A stretch of 32,123 nucleotides of DNA, from positions 1 through 32,123 of the forward strand of contig JALSGO010000014.1 in NCBI GenBank assembly GCA_026982655.1, in the 5' to 3' direction. Made by a program: the position numbers and the translations under genes. This DNA comes from Candidatus Bipolaricaulota bacterium (GTDB lineage: Bacteria; Bipolaricaulota; Bipolaricaulia; RBG-16-55-9). Below the pieces are notes generated by a model, which saw only the letters and a list, made by a program, of their open reading frames with translations, was not told where the DNA came from and did not search any database. Each line of letters opens with the position of its first letter. Position 1 is the stretch's first letter. Positions 17,950-30,243 of the stretch are shown here, in pieces.

Positions 17950-19434
17950 TTACTCGATCCCCTGCGCCTTCTGGAGCCTGCCGGAGTAGTCGATGTAGAC
18001 GGACTTCCACTCCGTGTACTCGTCGAGGGCGGCCAAGCCCGCCTCGCGCCCTCCGTTGCCCGTGTCCTTCACCCCGCCGAAGGGGAGGTGAATCTCTGCC
18101 CCGATCGTCCCGTGGTTGATGTAGGTGATCCCGGCTTCGAGATCTTCGATGGCCCGCATCGCCAGGTGGATGTCCCGGGTGAAGATCGCGGAGCTCAGCC
18201 CATAGGTCGTGTCGTTGGCTAGCCGTATGGCTTCGTCGTAGTCCCGCGCTTTGACCACGCAGAGCACCGGGCCAAAGATCTCCTCGCGGAAGATGCGCAT
18301 CTCGGGGGTGACGTCCACGAAGAGGGTCGGCTTGTAGAAGTAGCCCTGGGCCAGATCTCCCTCCGTGGCCCGCTCCCCGCCCAAGATCTTCGTGGCGCCC
18401 CCTCGAATCCCCAACTCCACATACCGATGGACGCGGTCGAGCTGGACCTCGTTGACCAGCGGGCCCACTTGCACGTCCGGGTCCAGGCCATCGCCCAAGC
18501 GCAGGGCCTGCGTCGCCTCTGCGAGGCGCTCGATGAGTCGGTCGTAAACGGGCTCGTGGACGATCAGTCGTGAGCAGGCGGTGCATCGCTGTCCCGTGGT
18601 GCCGAAGGCGCTCCAGACGATCGCTTCCACCGCCAGATCCAGGTCCGCGTCGTCCATTACGATGATCGGGTTCTTCCCCCCCATCTCCAGGTGCACGCGG
18701 ATGAGCTTTCGGGCCGCTCGGGTGTAGACGTCGCGTCCGACCTCGGTGGACCCCGTAAACGAGATCATGTCGATCTGGGGGTGTTCTACCAAGGGGCGGC
18801 CGGCTTCCTCGCCGTAGCCGAAGACGACGTTGAGCACCCCGGGAGGGAGCCCGGCCTCTTCGAAGATCCGGGCGAACTCGTAGGCCGTACGGGGCGTGTC
18901 CTCCGCAGGCTTCCAGACGAGGGTGTTCCCTGCCACCAGTGCCGGGAGGATCTTCCAGCTGGGAACGGCGATGGGGAAGTTCCAGGGGGTGATCAATCCG
19001 ATGCGCCCGATGGGCCGTCGGATCGCGAAGCAGGCCTTCGAAGGCAGCTCGGACGGGGTGGTGTACCCCAAGAGTCTTCGTCCCTCTCCGGCCATGTAAT
19101 AGGCCATATCGATGGCCTCTTGGACGTCTCCGCGGGCCTCGTTTAACACCTTGCCCATCTCCCGGGTCATCGTCCGGGCGAGTTCCTCCTTGCGCTCCTC
19201 GAGAAGGCGGGCCACCCGGTAGAGGATCTCCGCCCGTTTGGGCGCGGGAGTGCGGCTCCAGGCTGCGAAGGCCTGAGCGGCGGCGTCCACCGCCGCCCTC
19301 ACGTCCTCCCCCCGCGAGCGGGGAAACTCCCCCAGCTCCTCTGCGGGACGGGCCGGGTTCGTCGAGACGAACGTCTCCCCGCTGCGGGCTTCCACCCACT
19401 CCCCACCGATCCAATTGCGATAGCGGGTTTCCAT
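17950..19434 (-). CDS. NAD(P)-dependent aldehyde dehydrogenase family protein
   Basis: [81 protein letters not shown]. Plausible start [14 protein letters not shown] at 19434. Confidence 0.96.
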
Positions 19435-19461
19435 GGCATCCCCCTCCTTGCTCTTTGGCCG

Positions 19462-19491
19462 ATTATAGGGGGAAGCTGCGCGCCAAGGCAA
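19462..19491 (-). promoter_or_regulatory. Candidate sigma70-like promoter for the aldehyde dehydrogenase
   Basis: Minus strand TTGCCT (19491-19486), 18 bp spacer, TATAAT (19467-19462), with a GGAGG-type SD before the ATG. Confidence 0.6.
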
Positions 19492-19503
19492 CGCGCCCTC
19501 CGG

Positions 19504-19532
19504 TTGACAGGGGCGCAGGGAGCGTCTATAAT
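19504..19532 (+). promoter_or_regulatory. Consensus sigma70 promoter for the Rieske/cytochrome b/Rnf-like operon
   Basis: TTGACA (19504-19509), 17 bp spacer, TATAAT (19527-19532). Confidence 0.85.
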
Positions 19533-19629
19533 TCGAGCCGATTTTCGCTAGGATCGGAGCTCCAGGGCCGTGGCTCCTGCCGTTGATCCCGGTCATGGCC
19601 CGGCCGAGTCAGTGGAAGTAAAATAGCAA

Positions 19630-19709
19630 ACCGCCCTCACCGGGGGTTCCAAGGCGGTCCTGTGCCGGCGGAAGCGAGCAGGCAGGACCGACTCTATCGG
19701 ACGATAGAG
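19630..19709 (+). promoter_or_regulatory. Structured 5' leader with three hairpins, two mutually overlapping
   Basis: ACCGCC/GGCGGT (19630-19635/19653-19658), GGTCCTG/CAGGACC (19656-19662/19683-19689), CTCTATC/GATAGAG (19692-19698/19703-19709). Confidence 0.55.
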
Positions 19710-19749
19710 GGCGGACCAGGCTATCGCACGCACGAGTGACATCGACATC

Positions 19750-20376
19750 ATGAAGATAGGTCGCGTGGAAGAGGAGTTTCCCCTCTCGCCGGAGGCTCGA
19801 CGACTGACCCGGCGGAAGTTTCTGAGTCGGCTGGGGATCGGGGCTTTCGCCTTGAGCGCCGGGGCGTTTGCCACCAGCGTAGGGGCGTACATCCTTCCGA
19901 AACTGAACTTCGAACCCTCCTCCGTCTTCTCCATCGGGCGTCCCGAGGAGTACCAGGTCGGGGACATGCGGTTGCTGGAGTCCCAGCAAGTCTATGTCTT
20001 CCGCGCTCCGCTGGGCTTTCAAGTGGTCTCGGCCATCTGCACGCACTTGGGGTGCTCGTATCGACCCTTTGGACCGCCGAACGAGGAGTTCCCCTTGGTA
20101 CACGCCTTATGCCCTTGTCACGGCTCGGTCTTCGCGCGGGACGGGCGCGTGTTGGGAGGACCGGCTCCGCGTCCGCTGCCCTTTTACCACATCGACCTCA
20201 CGCCGGACGGACGGCTCTTGGTGGACAAGAGCGTAGTGCAGCTCACGGACCCCCTCAGCAAGGCGAGCGGGGAAGGCATCGGGCACAACCTCTACTTTGA
20301 CCCGGAGCGCCGGCAGCTGGTGGAAGGACCGCTCCCCGACGGGAGCGATTGCCTTCCGTGCCAGAAGGGAGGCTGA
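19750..20376 (+). CDS. Rieske [2Fe-2S] protein with Tat-like/TM anchor
   Basis: LTRRKFLSRLGIGAFALSAGAF anchor; CTHLGC and CPCHGS Rieske cluster motifs. Confidence 0.95.
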   Translation: MKIGRVEEEFPLSPEARRLTRRKFLSRLGIGAFALSAGAFATSVGAYILPKLNFEPSSVFSIGRPEEYQVGDMRLLESQQVYVFRAPLGFQVVSAICTHLGCSYRPFGPPNEEFPLVHALCPCHGSVFARDGRVLGGPAPRPLPFYHIDLTPDGRLLVDKSVVQLTDPLSKASGEGIGHNLYFDPERRQLVEGPLPDGSDCLPCQKGG

Positions 20377-20384
20377 GCCCACCG

Positions 20385-21161
20385 ATGGACCTCTTCTTCT
20401 ACGGGCTCATCGACCGGTGGGTGCTGCTTCAGCAGCAGATCCGCCGCAGCTCGGTGTGGATCTCCATCTTCCGCCGGGAGCATCTCCCTCAGACGGAGAC
20501 GGACTTCCTGGCCATGAACCGGAAGAACTTCTTCGTCCACATCCTGCCCGCCACCATCGACAAGCGGTCCCTGCGCATCACCTACAGCTGGTTCTGGATG
20601 GGGGTCATCGCGTTTTGGCTCTTCGTCATCCTGGTGGTCACGGGGATCTACCTGATGTTCTACTACGTCCCCTCGGTGGAGCGGGCCTTCGACACGGTGC
20701 GCCAGATCATCAATCAAGTCACCTTAGGGCGGTTCATCCGCAACCTGCACAAGTGGGCCGGGGAGTTCATGGTCTTGGCCGTCTTCCTGCACATGCTGCG
20801 GGTCTTCTACACCGGGGCGTACCAGAAGCCTCGAGAGTTCAACTGGGTCATCGGGATCTTTCTCTTTTTGATCACCATCATGTTCGCCTTCTCCGGGTAC
20901 ATCCTCCCCTGGGATCAGTTGGGGTACTACGCGGCGAAGATCGCCTGCAACATCGCGGAGAACGTCCCCTTTGCCGGCGATCAAGTCCGCCAAGCGCTCC
21001 TTGGGGTGAGCGACTGCAACAACTTAAACCAGTTCTCGCTGCTGCGCTGGTACGTGATCCACGTCTTCCTCCTGCCCGTGCTCATGGTCCTGCTCATCGC
21101 AATTCACTTCTGGCGAATCCGCAAGGACGAGTACACGATCCCGCCGGAGGAGGGAGCCTGA
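20385..21161 (+). CDS. Cytochrome b6-type cytochrome b N-terminal subunit
   Basis: LHKWAGEFMVLAVFLH and IHVFLLPVLMVLLIAIH heme-ligand pairs (13 and 14 intervening residues, b6-like); GYILPWDQLGYYA. Start taken at 20385 (MDLFFYGLIDRW). Confidence 0.93.
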   Translation: MDLFFYGLIDRWVLLQQQIRRSSVWISIFRREHLPQTETDFLAMNRKNFFVHILPATIDKRSLRITYSWFWMGVIAFWLFVILVVTGIYLMFYYVPSVERAFDTVRQIINQVTLGRFIRNLHKWAGEFMVLAVFLHMLRVFYTGAYQKPREFNWVIGIFLFLITIMFAFSGYILPWDQLGYYAAKIACNIAENVPFAGDQVRQALLGVSDCNNLNQFSLLRWYVIHVFLLPVLMVLLIAIHFWRIRKDEYTIPPEEGA

Positions 21162-22603
21162 TGGCCATCGTCGGCACCTTAAAGACCTTCAAAGGCGGGC
21201 GCTACTTCCCCCGCTTGGAGGGGCTACCCCGTGGACCCATTGTAGAGGCTCCCCTCCCCGCCCGGGTGAGGATCCCGCTGCGCCAGGGGTTCGGAGAGGA
21301 GCCGGACCTCCAAGTCCGGGTGGGCCAACGGGTGCGCACGGGCGAGGTGATCGCCCGCTCCGACGAGAAGATCTCCACCCCGGTGCTCTCCCCCCTCACG
21401 GGAACTGTGGTGAGCATTGAGGAGGGGGTTCATCCCCTGGACGGGGAACCGACCACGATCGTCCTCGTCGAAGCCGAAACGTCTCCCTCCGGCGCTTACG
21501 AGGACGATTGGGCTCCGCTGGAGGTTCCTCAGGGGAACTTCGAGCGCTGGGGGCCGGAGGAACTGGGGCGCATCCTGTACGAGGCCGGGGTGACCGCCTT
21601 GGGGAAGTGGGGATTTCCTACGGTATACCGCACCGCCCCTACGGAACCCTCTGCGATCAAAGCCTTGCTCATCAACGCGGTCGAAGCGGAACCCTACCTG
21701 CGGGGGGATCGCGCGCTCCTGTACGAGGAGTTTGAGAAGTTCGTGACCGGGATCAAGATCCTCAAGAGCGCCCTAGGCAACGTCGAGGTGCACGTAGGAA
21801 TCGGGTATGACCGGCCTCACATCCTGGCCGAGCTGGAGGCTCGGATGGAGTACCACGACTGGCTTTACCTTCACCCCCTGCTTCCCAAGTACCCCCAGGG
21901 AGAGGACGAGGTCCTGATCAAGACGATCCTCAACCGGGAAGTGCCTGCCGGTCGTCCCGCCGGCGAGCTGGGCGTTGTGGTGTGCGACGTACAGCAGGTG
22001 ATCGCTGCCTATGAGGCGGTCGTCGAAGCCCGTCCTCTGGTGGACCGGGTGATCTCCTTGGGGGGATCCGCGATGGCGCGCCCTGCCAACGCCCGGGTGC
22101 GTCTGGGGACACCCGTAGGGGATCTGTTGGAGGCCTTCGGCCATCGAGGCCCTTCCCGGGTCGTCCTGGGGGGACCGCTCCGGGGGAACTCCGTGACGGA
22201 CGTGGAAACCCCCGTTACCCGGGAGGTCCGCGCGCTGGTGGCGTTGGAGGAGCCCCGTTCCCCTTCGGCCGCCCTGCGCTGGGGCTTCCTCCCTCGGACC
22301 GACGCCCATGTCCGGCTTTTGCCCCCCCTGGGCCGCACGAAACGGGCCACCACCGCGTTGGTAGGGGGGACGAAGCCGTGCATCCGGTGCGGGGATTGTG
22401 TGGACGTATGCCCTCAGAACCTATTCCCCTTCGAGCTGGCCGAGGCCAGCAAGCAGGGGGACCTGGACCGAGCCGAGCGGATGGCGATCTTCGCCTGCAT
22501 CGAGTGTGGACTGTGCAGCTACGTCTGCCCCTCGAAGATCGACCTCCTCGAGGACATCCGAAGGGGCAAACGCTGGATCCGCGAGGAGAGGCTGGAGGCG
22601 TAG
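21161..22603 (+). CDS. rnfC: RnfC-like electron transport subunit with two 4Fe-4S motifs
   Basis: FKGGRYFPRLEG...APLPARVRIPLRQGFGEEPDLQVRVGQRVRTGEVIA; CIRCGDCVDVCP and CIECGLCSYVCPSKI. Start ATG 21161 overlaps the cytochrome b stop. Confidence 0.9.
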   Translation: MAIVGTLKTFKGGRYFPRLEGLPRGPIVEAPLPARVRIPLRQGFGEEPDLQVRVGQRVRTGEVIARSDEKISTPVLSPLTGTVVSIEEGVHPLDGEPTTIVLVEAETSPSGAYEDDWAPLEVPQGNFERWGPEELGRILYEAGVTALGKWGFPTVYRTAPTEPSAIKALLINAVEAEPYLRGDRALLYEEFEKFVTGIKILKSALGNVEVHVGIGYDRPHILAELEARMEYHDWLYLHPLLPKYPQGEDEVLIKTILNREVPAGRPAGELGVVVCDVQQVIAAYEAVVEARPLVDRVISLGGSAMARPANARVRLGTPVGDLLEAFGHRGPSRVVLGGPLRGNSVTDVETPVTREVRALVALEEPRSPSAALRWGFLPRTDAHVRLLPPLGRTKRATTALVGGTKPCIRCGDCVDVCPQNLFPFELAEASKQGDLDRAERMAIFACIECGLCSYVCPSKIDLLEDIRRGKRWIREERLEA

Positions 22604-22675
22604 GCGAAGTCGCAGCGAAGGTCTAGAAAAGGACGAGCACGAAGACGGAAACGAGAACGGGAAGGGGATGGAACC

Positions 22676-23758
22676 ATGAGGAATCCGACGGCGACGTCCT
22701 CGATCCCAACGGAGGCCTCGGGGCCGCAGCGAGAACGGGATCGGCGGGGTGGGCTCTTCCCCGCAGGGGGACGTTTTGCCGTTGCGCGAGCCCCCTACCT
22801 GCGCGATGGGGTAGGGGTGCGCGGCTACTTGGGGGCGTTTGCGGTCACCCTCCTACCGATCGTCGGGGGAGCGGTAGCGCTCTTCGGGCTCCACGTGCTC
22901 GCGCTCGTTGCCCTTTCCTACGCTGTAGGGCTTGGATTTCACCTGGCGTTCTCGCGGGGGCTTAGGCAGCCCCGTCCCAATGAGGGGATCTTCCTGACCG
23001 CGGTGCTCTTCGCGCTCGTGTTGCCCCCGAACCCGCCCTGGGGGTTGGTGGTGCTCGGGGCAGTCTTCGTCGCCCTGGCGCGGGAGCTCTTCGGCGGGCT
23101 GGGACGTTACCCGTTCCACCCCGCGCTTGTGGGGAAGGCCTTGCTGGTGATCCTCTTTCCCACGGCCATGACGCGCCTTTGGGAACCGCTCTCCGGGGGA
23201 GGGGCAGGGTTTACCCAATGGGCCCCTACGGAGATGGCCTCTCAAACCCCCTTAATGGCCGCGCTCCAGGGGCAGGAGGTGGCGCTGGGAACGTGGTTAG
23301 GCGGCCAAGCCGCCGGCTTGCTGGGAGGCGCTCCGGCAGGGTTGCTCTTGCTGGCGGGCCTGTGGCTCGCCTTTACCCGAGCGGTCGATTGGCGTATCCC
23401 TCTGGGAATGGTCCTCACGCTCGCCGTGGGGGGAGGCTTGTTGGGCATGCTCTATCCGGAGACCTTTGGCGGTGGGTTTCTGGCCCACCTCTTGGGGGGA
23501 GGCTTCCTGTTGGCCGCCTTCTGGCTGGCCGGCGATCCCGTGACGAGCCCCATGACGCCGCGGGGGAAGTGGATCTTTGCCGTGGGGACTGCCCTGCTTA
23601 TCGTGGTGTTGCGAGGCCTTACCCCCTGGCCGGAAGAGGCGATCGTCTTCGCCGTCCTTGCGATGAACGCCTTGGTCCCCTGGCTCGATCGAGTGGCCGC
23701 ACCCCGTCCCTTTGGGATGGAGGGGCACCGAGGGATGGGGAAGGGAGGGAATCGATGA
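22676..23758 (+). CDS. rnfD: RnfD/NqrB family membrane subunit
   Basis: RYPFHPALVGKALLVILFPTAMT, ASQTPL, LTLAVGGGLLGMLYPETFGGGFLAHLLGGGFLLAAFWLAGDPVTSPMTPRGKWIFAVGTALLIVVLRGLTPWPEEAIVFAVLAMNALVPWLDR. Confidence 0.9.
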   Translation: MRNPTATSSIPTEASGPQRERDRRGGLFPAGGRFAVARAPYLRDGVGVRGYLGAFAVTLLPIVGGAVALFGLHVLALVALSYAVGLGFHLAFSRGLRQPRPNEGIFLTAVLFALVLPPNPPWGLVVLGAVFVALARELFGGLGRYPFHPALVGKALLVILFPTAMTRLWEPLSGGGAGFTQWAPTEMASQTPLMAALQGQEVALGTWLGGQAAGLLGGAPAGLLLLAGLWLAFTRAVDWRIPLGMVLTLAVGGGLLGMLYPETFGGGFLAHLLGGGFLLAAFWLAGDPVTSPMTPRGKWIFAVGTALLIVVLRGLTPWPEEAIVFAVLAMNALVPWLDRVAAPRPFGMEGHRGMGKGGNR

Positions 23759-24717
23759 GGGACCGCCTGCATCAAGCACGCGAGGAGTGGGAAACCCGTC
23801 GCCGACGGGTCCGGCGACAAGCGGCGATCCTCGGCGGCCTGACGGTGGGGGTCCTCGTCAGCTACGCGCTGCTCACGTCCGCGGGTTGGAGGGACGTGGT
23901 GTTGGCTGCCCTCTTCGGGGGAATCGGCTGGGCCCTGCTCGGATCGGCTTTTCAGGCGCTCGTCGAGCGTGTGAGACGGGAAGGGGTCTTGCCCCCGCCC
24001 GTGCGCTCCCATCGCCTGGGGATCTCCTTCGTCTTGGGGTTCCTCGTCTTGGTGGGGTTCTACGGGATCTTACAGATCCCCGGGATCGTCGCGCCCATCG
24101 TGTTGGGGGCCCTCACGTGGATGTCCGGCCAGGAGCTCCTGCAGCTCCGAGAGGTCTCCCGGCCGAGGGCTTTTGTGTCGATAGGGGACGACGCGCATGT
24201 GCTGCCCGTCCTTCCGGGAACCCATCTCCTGACCGCCTTGGAAGAGGCCGGGTATCGCTTGCTCACCCAGTGCGGGCGCAAGGGGCAGTGCGCGACGTGT
24301 CGAGTACGAGTACGCGCGGGCGCGCGGACGTGGACGTCGAAAGAGCAAGGGGCGGCGCTCACTCCCCGCCAGAAGGGACAGGGATGGGTGCTCTCTTGCC
24401 AGGTGACCGTCGATCGGGACATGGAGATCGACCTCTTCAAGCCCCTGGTGCTGCGCTGGCCGTCCTTCCCGGCCCGCCGCCTCTCGGAGGCGGCCCGATC
24501 GCTGCGCCGGGCGTTGCCGGGCTTCCACTGCGAGGTCTGCGGCTACCGCCTCTGCGAGGAGTATGCCCAGGCGATCGCCGAGGGGAGAGAGCCGATTACC
24601 CGCTGCCTGCCCGGAGGGGAACCCGTCCTCCGACGTCTGGAAGAGATCGCACAGCGCGAGAAGATCGTCCTGCGGAAGGCGGAAAAGACGGAGCCGGAAA
24701 GGAGAGGGGAGGGCTGA
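23755..24717 (+). CDS. Membrane-anchored fusion of an NqrF-type 2Fe-2S ferredoxin domain and an RnfB-type Fes (4Fe-4S) domain
   Basis: About 3-4 N-terminal TM segments; CGRKGQCATCRVRV...LSCQ; then HCEVCGYRLCEEYAQAIAEGREPITRCLPGG. Start ATG 23755 overlaps the rnfD stop (ATGA). Confidence 0.85.
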   Translation: MRDRLHQAREEWETRRRRVRRQAAILGGLTVGVLVSYALLTSAGWRDVVLAALFGGIGWALLGSAFQALVERVRREGVLPPPVRSHRLGISFVLGFLVLVGFYGILQIPGIVAPIVLGALTWMSGQELLQLREVSRPRAFVSIGDDAHVLPVLPGTHLLTALEEAGYRLLTQCGRKGQCATCRVRVRAGARTWTSKEQGAALTPRQKGQGWVLSCQVTVDRDMEIDLFKPLVLRWPSFPARRLSEAARSLRRALPGFHCEVCGYRLCEEYAQAIAEGREPITRCLPGGEPVLRRLEEIAQREKIVLRKAEKTEPERRGEG

Positions 24718-24722
24718 TTGCA

Positions 24723-25784
24723 GTGCCCAAGGTGATCATCCTCGGCCAGGAGGAGATCGAGGTCGAAGCGGGAGCGAACCTCCTGCGGGTGATCCAACAA
24801 CACGGCTACGATCGGGCACTCCCGGCTACCTGCGACGGACGGTGCACCTGTAGCACCTGTGCCGTGCGGGTGCTCAAGGGGGGCGACGAGGTCAAGCCCT
24901 GCGAGAAGGACCTCCTCAAGGACAAGATCGAGAAGAACTGGCGACTCTCCTGCCAGGTCCTCGTCGAGCAGGACATCGAGGTGGAGGTCCCCGGGTATGA
25001 AGTCGCCGAGGCCCTCGAGATCGAGCCGGGCCTTTTGGCGGACATCTTGGACTACTGCGCCGAACACCTTCCCCTCGCCCACATACGCTCCGGACAACGC
25101 ATCACGCTCAAGCGCCTGCGGGATCTGAGACGGCGTGTCCATGCCCTCGTGGAGGGCGGCGGCGATCCCCCGGACTTCGAGATCCTGCGGGACCTGTTGG
25201 TCTACCTGTTGGACCGTGACTTGGTGAAGGAAATCCCTTCGCGCCATCCCTTCACCGAGCGGACCGTGGAGATGATGGTTCAGGTCTTTGAGAAGCGTAT
25301 CCCTGCCCCCCTCGAGGAGCGCGAGGAGATCCTCACCTATCCCTATTACCTCTACGTGGTCTTCGCCCTCTTCTTCTTCCTGCTAGGGGGGTTGAGCATC
25401 TATGCGCTGTTCGTGGACGCCCCGCTGGAGCAGGCGGCCACCCCGACCTTCACTCCCAACCCCGAGAAGGCCCCGTGGTATTTCCTAGGGATCCAAGAGC
25501 TGTTGGCCATCTCCCCGAACTTGGGCGGGTTCCTCAACTCCATCGCCTTGGGCGGGGTCATCCTGCCGGGGTTGCTCGTCTTCTTCTGGATGGCCATCCC
25601 CTACATCGAGCACCGTCTCGAGTTTTGGCGCTCCGATCGCTCTCAACCGCCGGGACGCCGACTCCGGGAGCGGCCGGTAACCGTAGCCCTCTTCACCCTA
25701 ACGGTCTTCCTGTTTGTGGCCTTGATCATCGTCGGGACGTACTTCCGCGGCCCGAACTGGGAGTTCGTCCTCCCCTGGCGCTAG
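24723..25784 (+). CDS. 2Fe-2S ferredoxin domain fused to a cytochrome b C-terminal (subunit IV/PetD-like) domain
   Basis: CDGRCTCSTCAVRVLKGG...LSCQVLVEQDIEVEVP, then YYLYVVFALFFFLLGGLSIYALFVDAPLEQAATPTFTPNPEKAPWYFLGIQELLAISP and TM helices. Start inferred as GTG 24723. Confidence 0.85.
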   Translation: MPKVIILGQEEIEVEAGANLLRVIQQHGYDRALPATCDGRCTCSTCAVRVLKGGDEVKPCEKDLLKDKIEKNWRLSCQVLVEQDIEVEVPGYEVAEALEIEPGLLADILDYCAEHLPLAHIRSGQRITLKRLRDLRRRVHALVEGGGDPPDFEILRDLLVYLLDRDLVKEIPSRHPFTERTVEMMVQVFEKRIPAPLEEREEILTYPYYLYVVFALFFFLLGGLSIYALFVDAPLEQAATPTFTPNPEKAPWYFLGIQELLAISPNLGGFLNSIALGGVILPGLLVFFWMAIPYIEHRLEFWRSDRSQPPGRRLRERPVTVALFTLTVFLFVALIIVGTYFRGPNWEFVLPWR

Positions 25785-28378: not shown

Positions 28379-28993
28379 ATGTTCACCGGCATCGTCCAAG
28401 CGCTGGGGGAGGTGCGGGCTCACCGGGAGGGGCGTCTCATCGTCTGCGCTCCTTCCCTCGTCCGGGATCTGGCGGTGGGGGGCAGCGTCGCCGTGAACGG
28501 GGTCTGCCTCACCGCCGTGGCCGTAGACCCCCACGCCGGGACGTTTGCGGCGGAGCTGAGCCCGGAGACGCTCCGCCGCACCACGCTGGGGGAGCTCGCC
28601 GAGGGCGACCGGGTGAACTTGGAGCTTCCCCTGCGCGCGGGGGAGTTCCTGGGGGGGCACCTCCTGCAGGGCCACGTGGACGCCGTGGGCGAAGTGCGGG
28701 CGGTGGAGCCTCAGCCCGACGGCTCCTATCTCTTCGCGTTCCGGGTGGACCCGGAGTACGATCCCTGGATCGTGGAGAAGGGCTCGATCGCCGTGGACGG
28801 AATCAGCCTTACGCCCTTCGGGGTGGAGGGGGGACGCTTCCGCGTTGCGGTCATCCCGCACACCTACCGGAACACGACCTTGCAGGCGCGCGGACCGGGT
28901 GCTAGAGTGAACGTGGAGTTTGACATCCTCGCAAAATACGTGGCCAAACAGCTTCAGTGCCAGCGGAGGGGGGCAGAGCGCGAATGCCGCTGA
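28379..28993 (+). CDS. ribE: Riboflavin synthase alpha subunit
   Basis: [51 protein letters not shown]. Confidence 0.97.
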
Positions 28994-30243
28994 ACACCGT
29001 GGAAGAAGCCCTTGCGGCCCTCCGCCGGGGCGAGATGGTCATCGTCGTCGACGACGAGGACCGCGAGAACGAGGGGGATCTCGTCCTGGCGGCGGAGAAG
29101 GTGACACCGGAGAAGATCAACTTCATGGCCAAGTACGCCCGGGGCCTCATCTGCGTCCCCATGACGGAGGAGCGCTTAGAGGAGCTGGGGCTTAAGCTGA
29201 TGGTCCCCAGCGATCCGCACGAGAACAGCTGCGCGTTCACCGTCTCCGTGGACGCGCGGCGGGGGATCAGCACGGGGATCTCGGCCTATGATCGGGCACA
29301 CACCATCAAGACGCTGATCGACCCTAACACCAAGCCCGAGGACTTGGTGAAGCCGGGGCACGTCTTCCCGTTGCGGGCCCGGCCCGGGGGGGTGCTCCAG
29401 CGCGCCGGGCACACGGAGGCCAGTGTCGATCTCGTGAAGCTGGCGGGCCTCTACCCCGCGGCGGTCATCTGCGAGATCATGAACGAGGATGGCACCATGG
29501 CCCGGCTGCCCCAGCTGCGGGAGTTCGCCGAGCGCTTCGGGCTTGTCATCATCAGCATCGCCGACCTCATCCGGTACCGCCTCCAGCGCGAAACCCTGGT
29601 GGAGCGGATCGCCGCGGCCCGGCTGCCCACCCGCTTCGGCGAGTTCGAGATCCACGCCTACCGCAGCCTCATCGACGGGAAGGAGCACATCGCCCTGGTC
29701 AAAGGGGAGGTGGCCGGACGGGAGAACGTCTTGGTGCGGGTTCACTCCGAGTGCCTGACGGGCGACGTCTTTGGGTCCCTCAAGTGCGACTGCGGGGAGC
29801 AGGTGGAGGCGGCCCTACGGCGCATCCACGAAGAGGGGCTGGGGGTCTTTCTCTACCTGCGCCAGGAGGGCCGCGGCATCGGACTGGGGAACAAGATTCG
29901 CGCGTACCACCTCCAGGACGAGGGGCTCGACACGGTGGAGGCGAACCACCGATTGGGGTTCCCCGCGGATCTGCGGGAGTACGGCCTGGGGGCTCAGATC
30001 CTGCGGGATCTGGGGCTTACGACCCTCCGGATCCTCACGAACAACCCGAAGAAGATCGTGGGTCTGGAGAGCTACGGGCTGCGAATCGTCGATCAGATCC
30101 CGCTCACCGTGCCTCCCAACGAACACAACTACCGCTATCTCCGAACCAAGTACGAGAAGCTGGGCCACAAGCTGGAGGACCTCTTCCGACCGGAGGGGCC
30201 GGAGCCCCTTCCCGTAGACGGTCGCGATGAGCCGAACGATTGA
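28984..30243 (+). CDS. ribBA: Bifunctional 3,4-dihydroxy-2-butanone-4-phosphate synthase / GTP cyclohydrolase II
   Basis: [60 protein letters not shown]. Start [10 protein letters not shown] at 28984. Confidence 0.97.

Follow-up and report, generated by a model that had tools for sequence, protein, structure and literature searches.

Do Rnf-type genes, placed between the two halves of a split cytochrome b, encode parts of the same membrane complex as the cytochrome and, if so, in which direction would electrons pass through it? The question is raised by an operon in the window, the whole analysed stretch of 32,123 nucleotides from a Candidatus Bipolaricaulota genome (a MAG of 169 contigs, 90% complete). 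A sequence-only reading had proposed a single complex of Rieske/cytochrome b and Rnf/Nqr modules, in which cytochrome b replaces the RnfA/E half. The first proposal is supported by operon synteny, which spans genera and families; the second is rejected, since relatives carry cytochrome b together with RnfG, E and A, whose loss is secondary.

Organization of the operon

Six tightly packed genes, all on the + strand, extend from 19750 to 25784: Rieske, cytochrome b N-half, RnfC, RnfD, a protein indicated as B' (TM-Fer2-FeS) and a Fer2-cytochrome b C-half fusion. All had been described in the sequence-only reading, and all are present with domain matches; the region, taken there from 19504, begins at 19750, while 17950-19596 is an aldehyde dehydrogenase gene on the opposite strand. 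The six genes are all under purifying selection.

The Rieske 2Fe-2S protein (19750..20376, +; PF00355, E=5e-8) features a Tat-like anchor (RRKFLSRLG), one TM helix and the CTHLGC...CPCHGS motifs; its gene is kept in 12 loci. The cytochrome b6-type N-half (~20385..21161, +; PF00033, E=9e-45; also PF13631) probably starts with the ATG at 20385, where homologues begin. Its four heme histidines (134, 148, 238 and 253, in the numbering of the ORF from 20349) are spaced as in b6; in the alignment to cytochrome b6 from 7r0w and 1vf5, the heme c(n)-binding Cys is replaced by Trp.

The other half of cytochrome b closes the operon (~24723..25784, +; likely start GTG at 24723; ExtQ, 53 bits). It is a fusion, where a 2Fe-2S ferredoxin (residues ~1-100; PF00111, E=7e-10) is followed by a helical linker and by subunit IV, with three TM helices and a Qo-like motif, EKAPWYFLGIQE. 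The PF00032 match, weak in the window protein alone (E=0.043), is supported by the family: 7 of 8 members are matched, the best with E=9e-4. Foldseek returns ferredoxin/NqrF matches, and the AlphaFold model is weak beyond the ferredoxin, too weak for domain placement. Outside the phylum, 289 genomes were sampled, and none has the fusion. Given the topology of PetD in b6f, the ferredoxin-bearing end of subunit IV would face the n-side.

RnfC (21161..22603, +) scores 334 bits with TIGR01945 (cut-off 246) and matches PDB 7zc6_C with E=4e-60. It contains barrel-sandwich and Nuo51-like domains and two CxxCxxCxxxCP 4Fe-4S motifs, whose eight cysteines are all retained (omega 0.13, indicating purifying selection). 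Its flavin/NAD loop is altered, GVTALGKWGFPT in the window compared to the canonical GIVGMGGATFPT, the second glycine being replaced in 13 of 13 copies. RnfD/NqrB (22676..23758, +; PF03116, E=4e-64, 217 bits; 8ahx_D, E=5e-38) is Cys-free, and its flavinylation motif, D....AT, is broken (STEMASQT).

B' (23755..24717, +; PF00111 and PF04060), when compared with its full-form counterparts described below, is composed of a C-terminal stump of RnfA, an NqrF-like 2Fe-2S ferredoxin and an RnfB-like FeS domain. Domain searches found in it neither a FAD/NADH domain nor RnfB Fer4 domains; the NqrF profile matches with its N-terminal part only (48 bits, cut-off 295). The stump lies at approximately 23821..24072 (+), with B' residues ~23-106 corresponding to RnfA residues ~114-190. 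It is recognized at family level by HHalign (E=1.4e-8, 95.5%) and, in the window sequence alone, by hmmsearch (E=0.012), with a score that 0 of 300 shuffles reach. As judged from these alignments, the N-terminus of B' is what survives of the C-terminal helices of RnfA, ~75 residues.

The absence of RnfA, E and G, already pointed out in the earlier reading, extends to the whole source genome: profile searches for PF02508 (RnfA/E) and PF04205 (RnfG) were empty, so that, at 90% completeness, copies hidden elsewhere are rejected. The claim needs correction for RnfA, of which the stump persists. As also claimed, the operon contains no CxxCH gene, such as would encode cytochrome f or c1; nor, isolated single motifs aside, do the f1 operon flanks.

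Distribution and two forms of the operon

The operon was found in 15 genomes, all from a single Bipolaricaulota order. Its gene order does not vary among untruncated copies, and in every copy the Rnf genes are placed between the two cytochrome b halves, as the earlier reading had seen in the window. The order being kept in independent MAGs, it reflects neither chance nor an assembly chimera. A one-sequence search of genome contigs, of low sensitivity, returned nothing beyond three close relatives and, outside the phylum, a single cytochrome b.

Eight relatives from families f3 and f4 (G050-G055, G057 and G058; the loci of G051 and G052 end at contig ends) carry a full form: Rieske-cytb-rnfCDGEA-B'-(Fd-cytb). 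In the stripped form, to which the window belongs, PF02508 is absent in 7 of 7 genomes. As the sequences show, the ancestral form had a full Rnf set (rnfC-D-G-E-A and an NqrF/RnfB-like B') between the cytochrome b halves. By the same comparison, the stripped form arose by deletion, which removed rnfG, rnfE and the front part of rnfA, the rnfA stump being fused to B'. Independent gain of rnfGEA by the full forms is unlikely, given the stump.

Markers of covalent flavinylation are lost in the same genomes as rnfG/E/A. ApbE, not found in the source genome, is present in 0 of 7 stripped-form genomes versus 7 of 8 full-form ones, and the RnfD motif is intact in all aligned full-form copies and broken in all stripped-form copies. 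With the deletion and the loss of flavinylation, Rnf/Nqr ion pumping has lost the trans-membrane Fe-S/FMN wire by which it is driven.

The stripped G048 groups with full-form f3 in the concatenated, RnfC and Fd-cytbC trees; in the RnfD tree it falls outside f3 and f4. This conflict suggests either two deletions, or one deletion and a transfer.

Respiratory context

A COX1 match is present in 14 of the 15 operon carriers, weak in one; the exception is a genome 61% complete. In the f5 genomes the operon is absent, and neither has a COX1 match. The source genome has a CuA oxidase. The operon is tied to oxidase-bearing genomes, which speaks for a respiratory role. NuoD of complex I is found in 7 of 7 stripped-form genomes. 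A redox partner of the Rieske protein is missing from the window operon; a tetraheme c is found near full-form operons.

As to quinone synthesis, the source genome shows just part of a pathway, with a MenF-like gene and a MenD cut off at a contig end. MenD scores above cut-off only in G058; MqnA/D were found nowhere in the phylum. Full-form f3 has neither MenD nor MqnA/D. The strongest UbiA match, in G061, adjoins COX1/COX3 and is probably a heme O synthase.

Comparison with known systems

With the Rnf complex, the window shares RnfC and RnfD homologues, the RnfB FeS domain, the order C-D-(G-E-A)-B and an RnfC with the cysteines for two 4Fe-4S clusters. It differs in that RnfA, E and G are missing, cytochrome b genes flank the Rnf set, the covalent FMN motif of RnfD is broken and ApbE lost, and the multi-cluster ferredoxin domains of RnfB are missing, B' having FeS and Fer2 instead of Fer4. 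The TM and 2Fe-2S part of B' is NqrF-like, and the 2Fe-2S domains resemble NqrF; unlike in Na+-NQR, the FAD/NADH domain of NqrF is lacking, the NqrC and NqrD/E families are absent from the genome, and electron output is presumably at cytochrome b, not at NqrA/B. With cytochrome b6f/bc1, the Rieske protein, the split b6/subunit IV, the four heme ligands and the Qo-like motif are shared; the operon differs by the absence of cytochrome f or c1, by the ferredoxin fused to subunit IV and, compared to b6f, by the Trp in place of the heme c(n) Cys.

Rieske/cytb complexes of anammox bacteria (Kuenenia; PMC12954380) likewise combine a Rieske/cytb core with a cytoplasmic electron-exchange module, which, however, is an NAD(P) oxidoreductase instead of RnfC/RnfD/2Fe-2S; the window operon also lacks their multiheme c subunits.

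The novelty claimed in the sequence-only reading holds in part. A single sentence in Takami et al. 2012 (PMC3267732) ascribes a cluster of rnfCDGEAB, Rieske and cytochrome b, interpreted as an ordinary Rnf, to 'Ca. Acetothermum autotrophicum', from the same phylum. Compared by published description, the gene content of that cluster matches the f3/f4 full form, hence the eight genomes listed above, and not the window, where G/E/A are missing; the ferredoxin-subunit IV fusion, the NqrF-like B' and the stripped form were not reported there. We found no literature report of the stripped form, the RnfA stump, the ferredoxin-cytochrome b fusion or the flavin losses, and a 2025 RNF/NQR review mentions neither Rieske nor cytochrome b.

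Proposed electron route and alternatives

Synteny and domain fusions make it very likely that the six proteins form one membrane complex, with a Rieske/cytochrome b core and Rnf/Nqr-type modules. The cytoplasmic face of the b6f-type core would be wired, via ferredoxin domains, to the RnfC-type Fe-S/flavin protein. Reduced ferredoxin or NAD(P)H would deliver electrons to RnfC, to the 2Fe-2S and FeS domains of B', or to both. The n-side ferredoxin domain of subunit IV would take them up next and hand them to heme b(H), and from there they would reach quinone at Qn. At Qo, the quinol would be oxidised again, through Rieske, a P-side carrier and a heme-copper oxidase. A Q-cycle fed by ferredoxin or NAD(P)H would result, much as ferredoxin drives cyclic electron flow into b6f, with RnfD retained as RnfC anchor. 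In the full form the route would be identical, the Rnf pump being passed first.

This route is suggested by the conserved order, the full form, the RnfA stump, the ApbE and RnfD motif losses and purifying selection, and by the n-side ferredoxin end of subunit IV, the oxidases, the MenF-like gene and partial MenD, the altered RnfC loop and NuoD. The direction of electron flow we infer solely from thermodynamics and topology. Such n-side entry into a b6f-type complex, in a chain that respires O2 and has given up Rnf pumping, is put forward at somewhat less than even confidence; the explanation as a whole, i.e. one complex, pump loss and a ferredoxin/NAD(P)H-fed Q-cycle, is given about an even chance.

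The main rival, rather unlikely, is quinol-driven bifurcation: of the quinol electrons, one would pass via Rieske to the oxidase, and hemes b and the ferredoxin domains would conduct the second to RnfC, from where it would reach NAD(P)+ or ferredoxin, so that a low-potential reductant would be generated. The same idea has been advanced for the anammox complexes, backed by measured Rieske potentials (PMC12954380), and the oxidase matches, seen in all carriers but the incomplete one, would serve the high-potential branch. The glycine replaced in every RnfC copy speaks against it, and, on general grounds, the full form would push already-uphill electrons through the Rnf core in the ion-exporting sense.

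It is improbable that a Rieske/cytb complex and the degenerate remnant of an Rnf are two separate complexes sharing only their transcript. Loss of the pump fits such a remnant, as does the faster evolution of RnfD and B' (76% and 64% identity to G062, versus 94-95% for the cytochrome b parts); yet the Rnf genes lie between the cytochrome b halves in all copies, a 2Fe-2S domain on subunit IV would be out of place in a plain bc/b6f complex, and RnfC shows constraint and intact cluster ligands. That the remnant feeds or drains another partner, for instance a redox sensor or a reducing system of the Rsx kind, and draws its electrons from the quinone pool, is scarcely plausible: Rnf homologues can serve SoxR reduction, as E. 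coli Rsx does (PMC12174285), but the conserved operon is without a regulator, and its link with oxidase-bearing genomes indicates respiration. An assembly or binning chimera, or loss of rnfGEA in a contig gap, conceivable for a fragmented MAG, can be practically discarded, as the junctions are identical in independent MAGs, including one 118-kb contig (G061, L041), the RnfA stump is in frame, and both PF02508 and ApbE are missing from all stripped genomes.

Returning to the ferredoxin/NAD(P)H-fed route, we tentatively propose, at slightly under even confidence, a distinct class of Bipolaricaulota complexes: in the full form an Rnf/Nqr pump would feed Qn of a b6f-type complex, while in the stripped form, the pump being abandoned, a direct cytoplasmic wire would lead from ferredoxin/NAD(P)H to cytochrome b, so that the whole would act as one oxidoreductase between ferredoxin or NAD(P)H and a high-potential carrier. 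If true, this would connect Rnf/Nqr pumps and bc/b6f complexes, energy-converting families usually handled separately. The stripped lineage looks like a natural experiment, with ferredoxin or NADH electrons wired straight into cytochrome b, and nature also offers the comparison, a full form of the complex that still has the ion-pumping half next to a stripped one that has lost it. How low-potential electrons enter the n-side site of cytochrome b, and which Rnf parts become dispensable once the pump is abandoned, would then become testable.

Gene content of the operon

The window lies in a 2.08-Mb genome of 169 contigs, 90% complete and 4% contaminated (the window is its contig 14), whose nearest named relatives are Bipolaricaulota/Acetothermia MAGs. 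Six + strand genes, overlapping or separated by short gaps, span 19750-25784; identities were assigned via Pfam and NCBIfam. The first four code, in order, for a Rieske protein, the N-terminal half of cytochrome b, RnfC (TIGR01945, 334 bits, cut-off 246) and RnfD/NqrB (PF03116, 217 bits). The fifth, indicated as B' (23755-24717), encodes a membrane protein that combines a 2Fe-2S ferredoxin with an FeS domain of the RnfB type; in the product of the sixth, Fd-cytb (24723-25784), a 2Fe-2S ferredoxin is followed by three transmembrane helices. The three-helix part is cytochrome b subunit IV: seven of the eight family members match PF00032 (E=9e-4 at best; the window's own copy, E=0.043), ExtQ matches the window protein with 53 bits, and the C-terminal part of the family profile retrieves apparent cytochrome b C-halves from many other bacteria. 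The Qo-like motif of the window's subunit IV is EKAPWYFLGIQE. Two extra cysteines (CDGRCTCSTC, CEKD; Fd-cytb residues 38-47 and 61) are present in the subunit IV ferredoxin of the window, G062 and G064, and are not seen in the other Fd-cytb copies.

B' shares with NqrF the transmembrane and 2Fe-2S part, but lacks its FAD/NADH domain; it has a small FeS domain, but not the ferredoxin domains of RnfB. Judged by these domains, B' is not RnfB. All six genes are under purifying selection (omega 0.06-0.23, window vs G062): in this comparison the cytochrome b parts evolve slowest (94-95% identity), RnfD (76%) and B' (64%) fastest.

Conservation of the operon

The full-length Fd-subunit IV fusion is found in 15 of 100 Bipolaricaulota genomes, distributed over four families, all within the window's order; among 389 genomes scanned with a profile, of which 289 are not Bipolaricaulota, there was no full-length match beyond those 15. 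All loci that are not truncated by a contig end share the order Rieske, cytochrome b N-half, RnfC, RnfD, (further genes in some), ferredoxin-FeS, Fd-subunit IV. The suspicion of a chimeric assembly at 21161 and 24723 is dispelled by the same junctions in independent MAGs, one within a 118-kb contig.

The riboflavin genes ribE-ribBA adjoin the operon in family f3, directly upstream and divergent, and lie about 2.6 kb downstream of it in the window (28379-30243) and its f1 relatives; loci with this neighborhood are the window, L043 (15668-17573), L038, L041, L044, L046, L048 and L050. Two order-mates without the operon, G059 and G060, carry a related ferredoxin-type protein (L053:8025-9338; L055:93-1082), within an apparent complex I/membrane hydrogenase-like cluster.

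Full and stripped forms

In most of f3, and in f4, about 2 kb more are found between RnfD and the ferredoxin-FeS gene, coding for RnfG, RnfE and RnfA (NCBIfam identities). This full form, Rieske - cytb - rnfC-D-G-E-A-B' - (Fd-cytb), amounts to an Rnf operon in the usual C-D-G-E-A-B order, placed between the two halves of one cytochrome b. Since the sole PF02508 pair of the eight full-form genomes is the one at this locus, the hybrid is their only Rnf/Nqr.

Such a cluster had been noticed before: in 'Ca. Acetothermum autotrophicum', rnfCDGEAB was reported to cluster, operon-like, with genes for Rieske and cytochrome b, and was handled as a normal Rnf (Takami et al. 2012, PMC3267732). In the open-licence literature no later discussion of it was found, and a 2025 RNF/NQR review does not mention Rieske or cytochrome b at all; as far as found, the full hybrid has not been analyzed. 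In the same literature nothing was found on the stripped form, on the stump of RnfA, on the fusion of Fd to subunit IV, or on the joint disappearance of ApbE and the motif in RnfD, all described here.

The operon without rnfG, rnfE and rnfA is found in seven genomes (window, G062, G061, G063, G064, G047, G048), none of which contains PF02508 anywhere. Their B' begins with three or four additional hydrophobic helices. This block is the tail of RnfA: HHalign aligns it to RnfA residues 120-186 (95.5% probability, E=1.4e-8), while RnfE gives no match. By RnfA profile search, E-values are 7e-10 for G048, 5e-6 for G063, 2e-5 for G047 and 0.01 for the window, and for these four 0/300 shuffles attain the observed score; the other three copies, each taken singly, score near noise in this control. 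The lost front of RnfA includes the cysteines that belong to the intramembrane Fe-S site of Nqr/Rnf. In G048 (L047:7703-9770) two tandem genes share the B' function: the first encodes the helix block (RnfA stump) and a 2Fe-2S domain, the second a 2Fe-2S and an FeS domain.

Because an RnfA tail remains on its B', the stripped form derives from the full one. The sequence-only reading was right in its observations and partly right in its interpretation, a hybrid of Rieske/cytochrome b with Rnf/Nqr modules; its suggestion that cytochrome b replaced RnfA/E fails, as relatives hold cytochrome b together with RnfG/E/A, and the stripped B' bears the stump.

In the concatenated tree (displayed midpoint rooted), stripped G048 groups with full-form f3 (97% support), f4, also full, is outside this group, and f1+f2 are apart. 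The position of G048 implies two deletions, or one plus a transfer; the RnfD tree disagrees on this position.

Flavin machinery and respiratory setting

ApbE attaches FMN to RnfD and RnfG (PMC12174285). It is matched in none of the seven stripped genomes and in seven of the eight full ones (Fisher p=0.0014, relatedness ignored), the single exception being a 72% complete genome. All seven aligned full-form copies of RnfD keep the motif D....AT, which A. woodii also shows; in 7/7 stripped ones it is broken, the window reading STEMASQT; both Asn of QNxxNP are also gone from the window RnfD. The conserved Asp of ATDP/AGDP, tied to riboflavin and Na+ in C. tetanomorphum (PMC9588780) and matched by alignment, is kept. 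In stripped lineages, the flavin machinery was lost along with rnfG/E/A.

Of the 15 carriers, 14 have COX1 matches (only weak in G047), the remaining one being a 61% complete genome; the two f5 genomes, both without the operon, have none. By its sequence, the CuA oxidase subunit II of the window's genome has no fused heme c; MenF-like, NuoD-like and NuoI-like genes are also present, as is a MenD that runs off its contig. NuoD is found in 7/7 stripped vs 3/8 full genomes (p=0.026, relatedness ignored): where the Rnf pump has been lost, the lineages possess complex I.

Near full-form operons (L043:4144-5340, L044, L046, L049, L051:917-2650) lies a c-type cytochrome (tetraheme c) that is anchored in the membrane and contains four or five CxxCH, its N-termini being similar in f3 and f4; none adjoins f1 operons. 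It is a possible partner of Rieske. Two further full-length cytochrome b proteins of the window's genome (L052, G000:C83:38000-57000) neighbor a cupredoxin, a flavin oxidoreductase, a copper-type P-ATPase and an MMPL transporter; the scanned ORFs around them contain neither c-type heme motifs nor Rieske.

Proposed electron flow

That the six proteins assemble as one complex is probable. If subunit IV is oriented like PetD, its ferredoxin would face the cytoplasm, close to heme b(H) and the Qn site; in Rnf/Nqr, the B' and RnfC counterparts are also cytoplasmic. In the stripped form all cofactors from cytoplasm to heme b(H) could share one face and would need no transmembrane wire, in keeping with A/E/G and covalent FMN having been lost.

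Two directions may be considered. Quinol bifurcation towards NAD(P)+ has been proposed for anammox complexes on the basis of measured potentials (PMC12954380); here it is the less likely of the two. The opposite direction, tentatively favored, is entry: electrons from ferredoxin or NAD(P)H would enter RnfC/B', then pass to heme b(H) and to quinone. With ferredoxin at about -450 mV and NADH at -320 mV, flow to menaquinone is downhill. In the full form, entry would let the Rnf core work from B' to C, the direction in which it exports ions, with RnfC passing electrons to the subunit IV ferredoxin in place of NAD+. The second glycine of the RnfC flavin/NAD loop is replaced in 13/13 copies, which might hint at a loss of NAD+ chemistry.

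As a compromise among structure and history, assembly and direction, the explanation as a whole has about an even chance of being right. For structure and history taken by themselves, the window's complex is very probably an Rnf-b6f hybrid that lost its pump.
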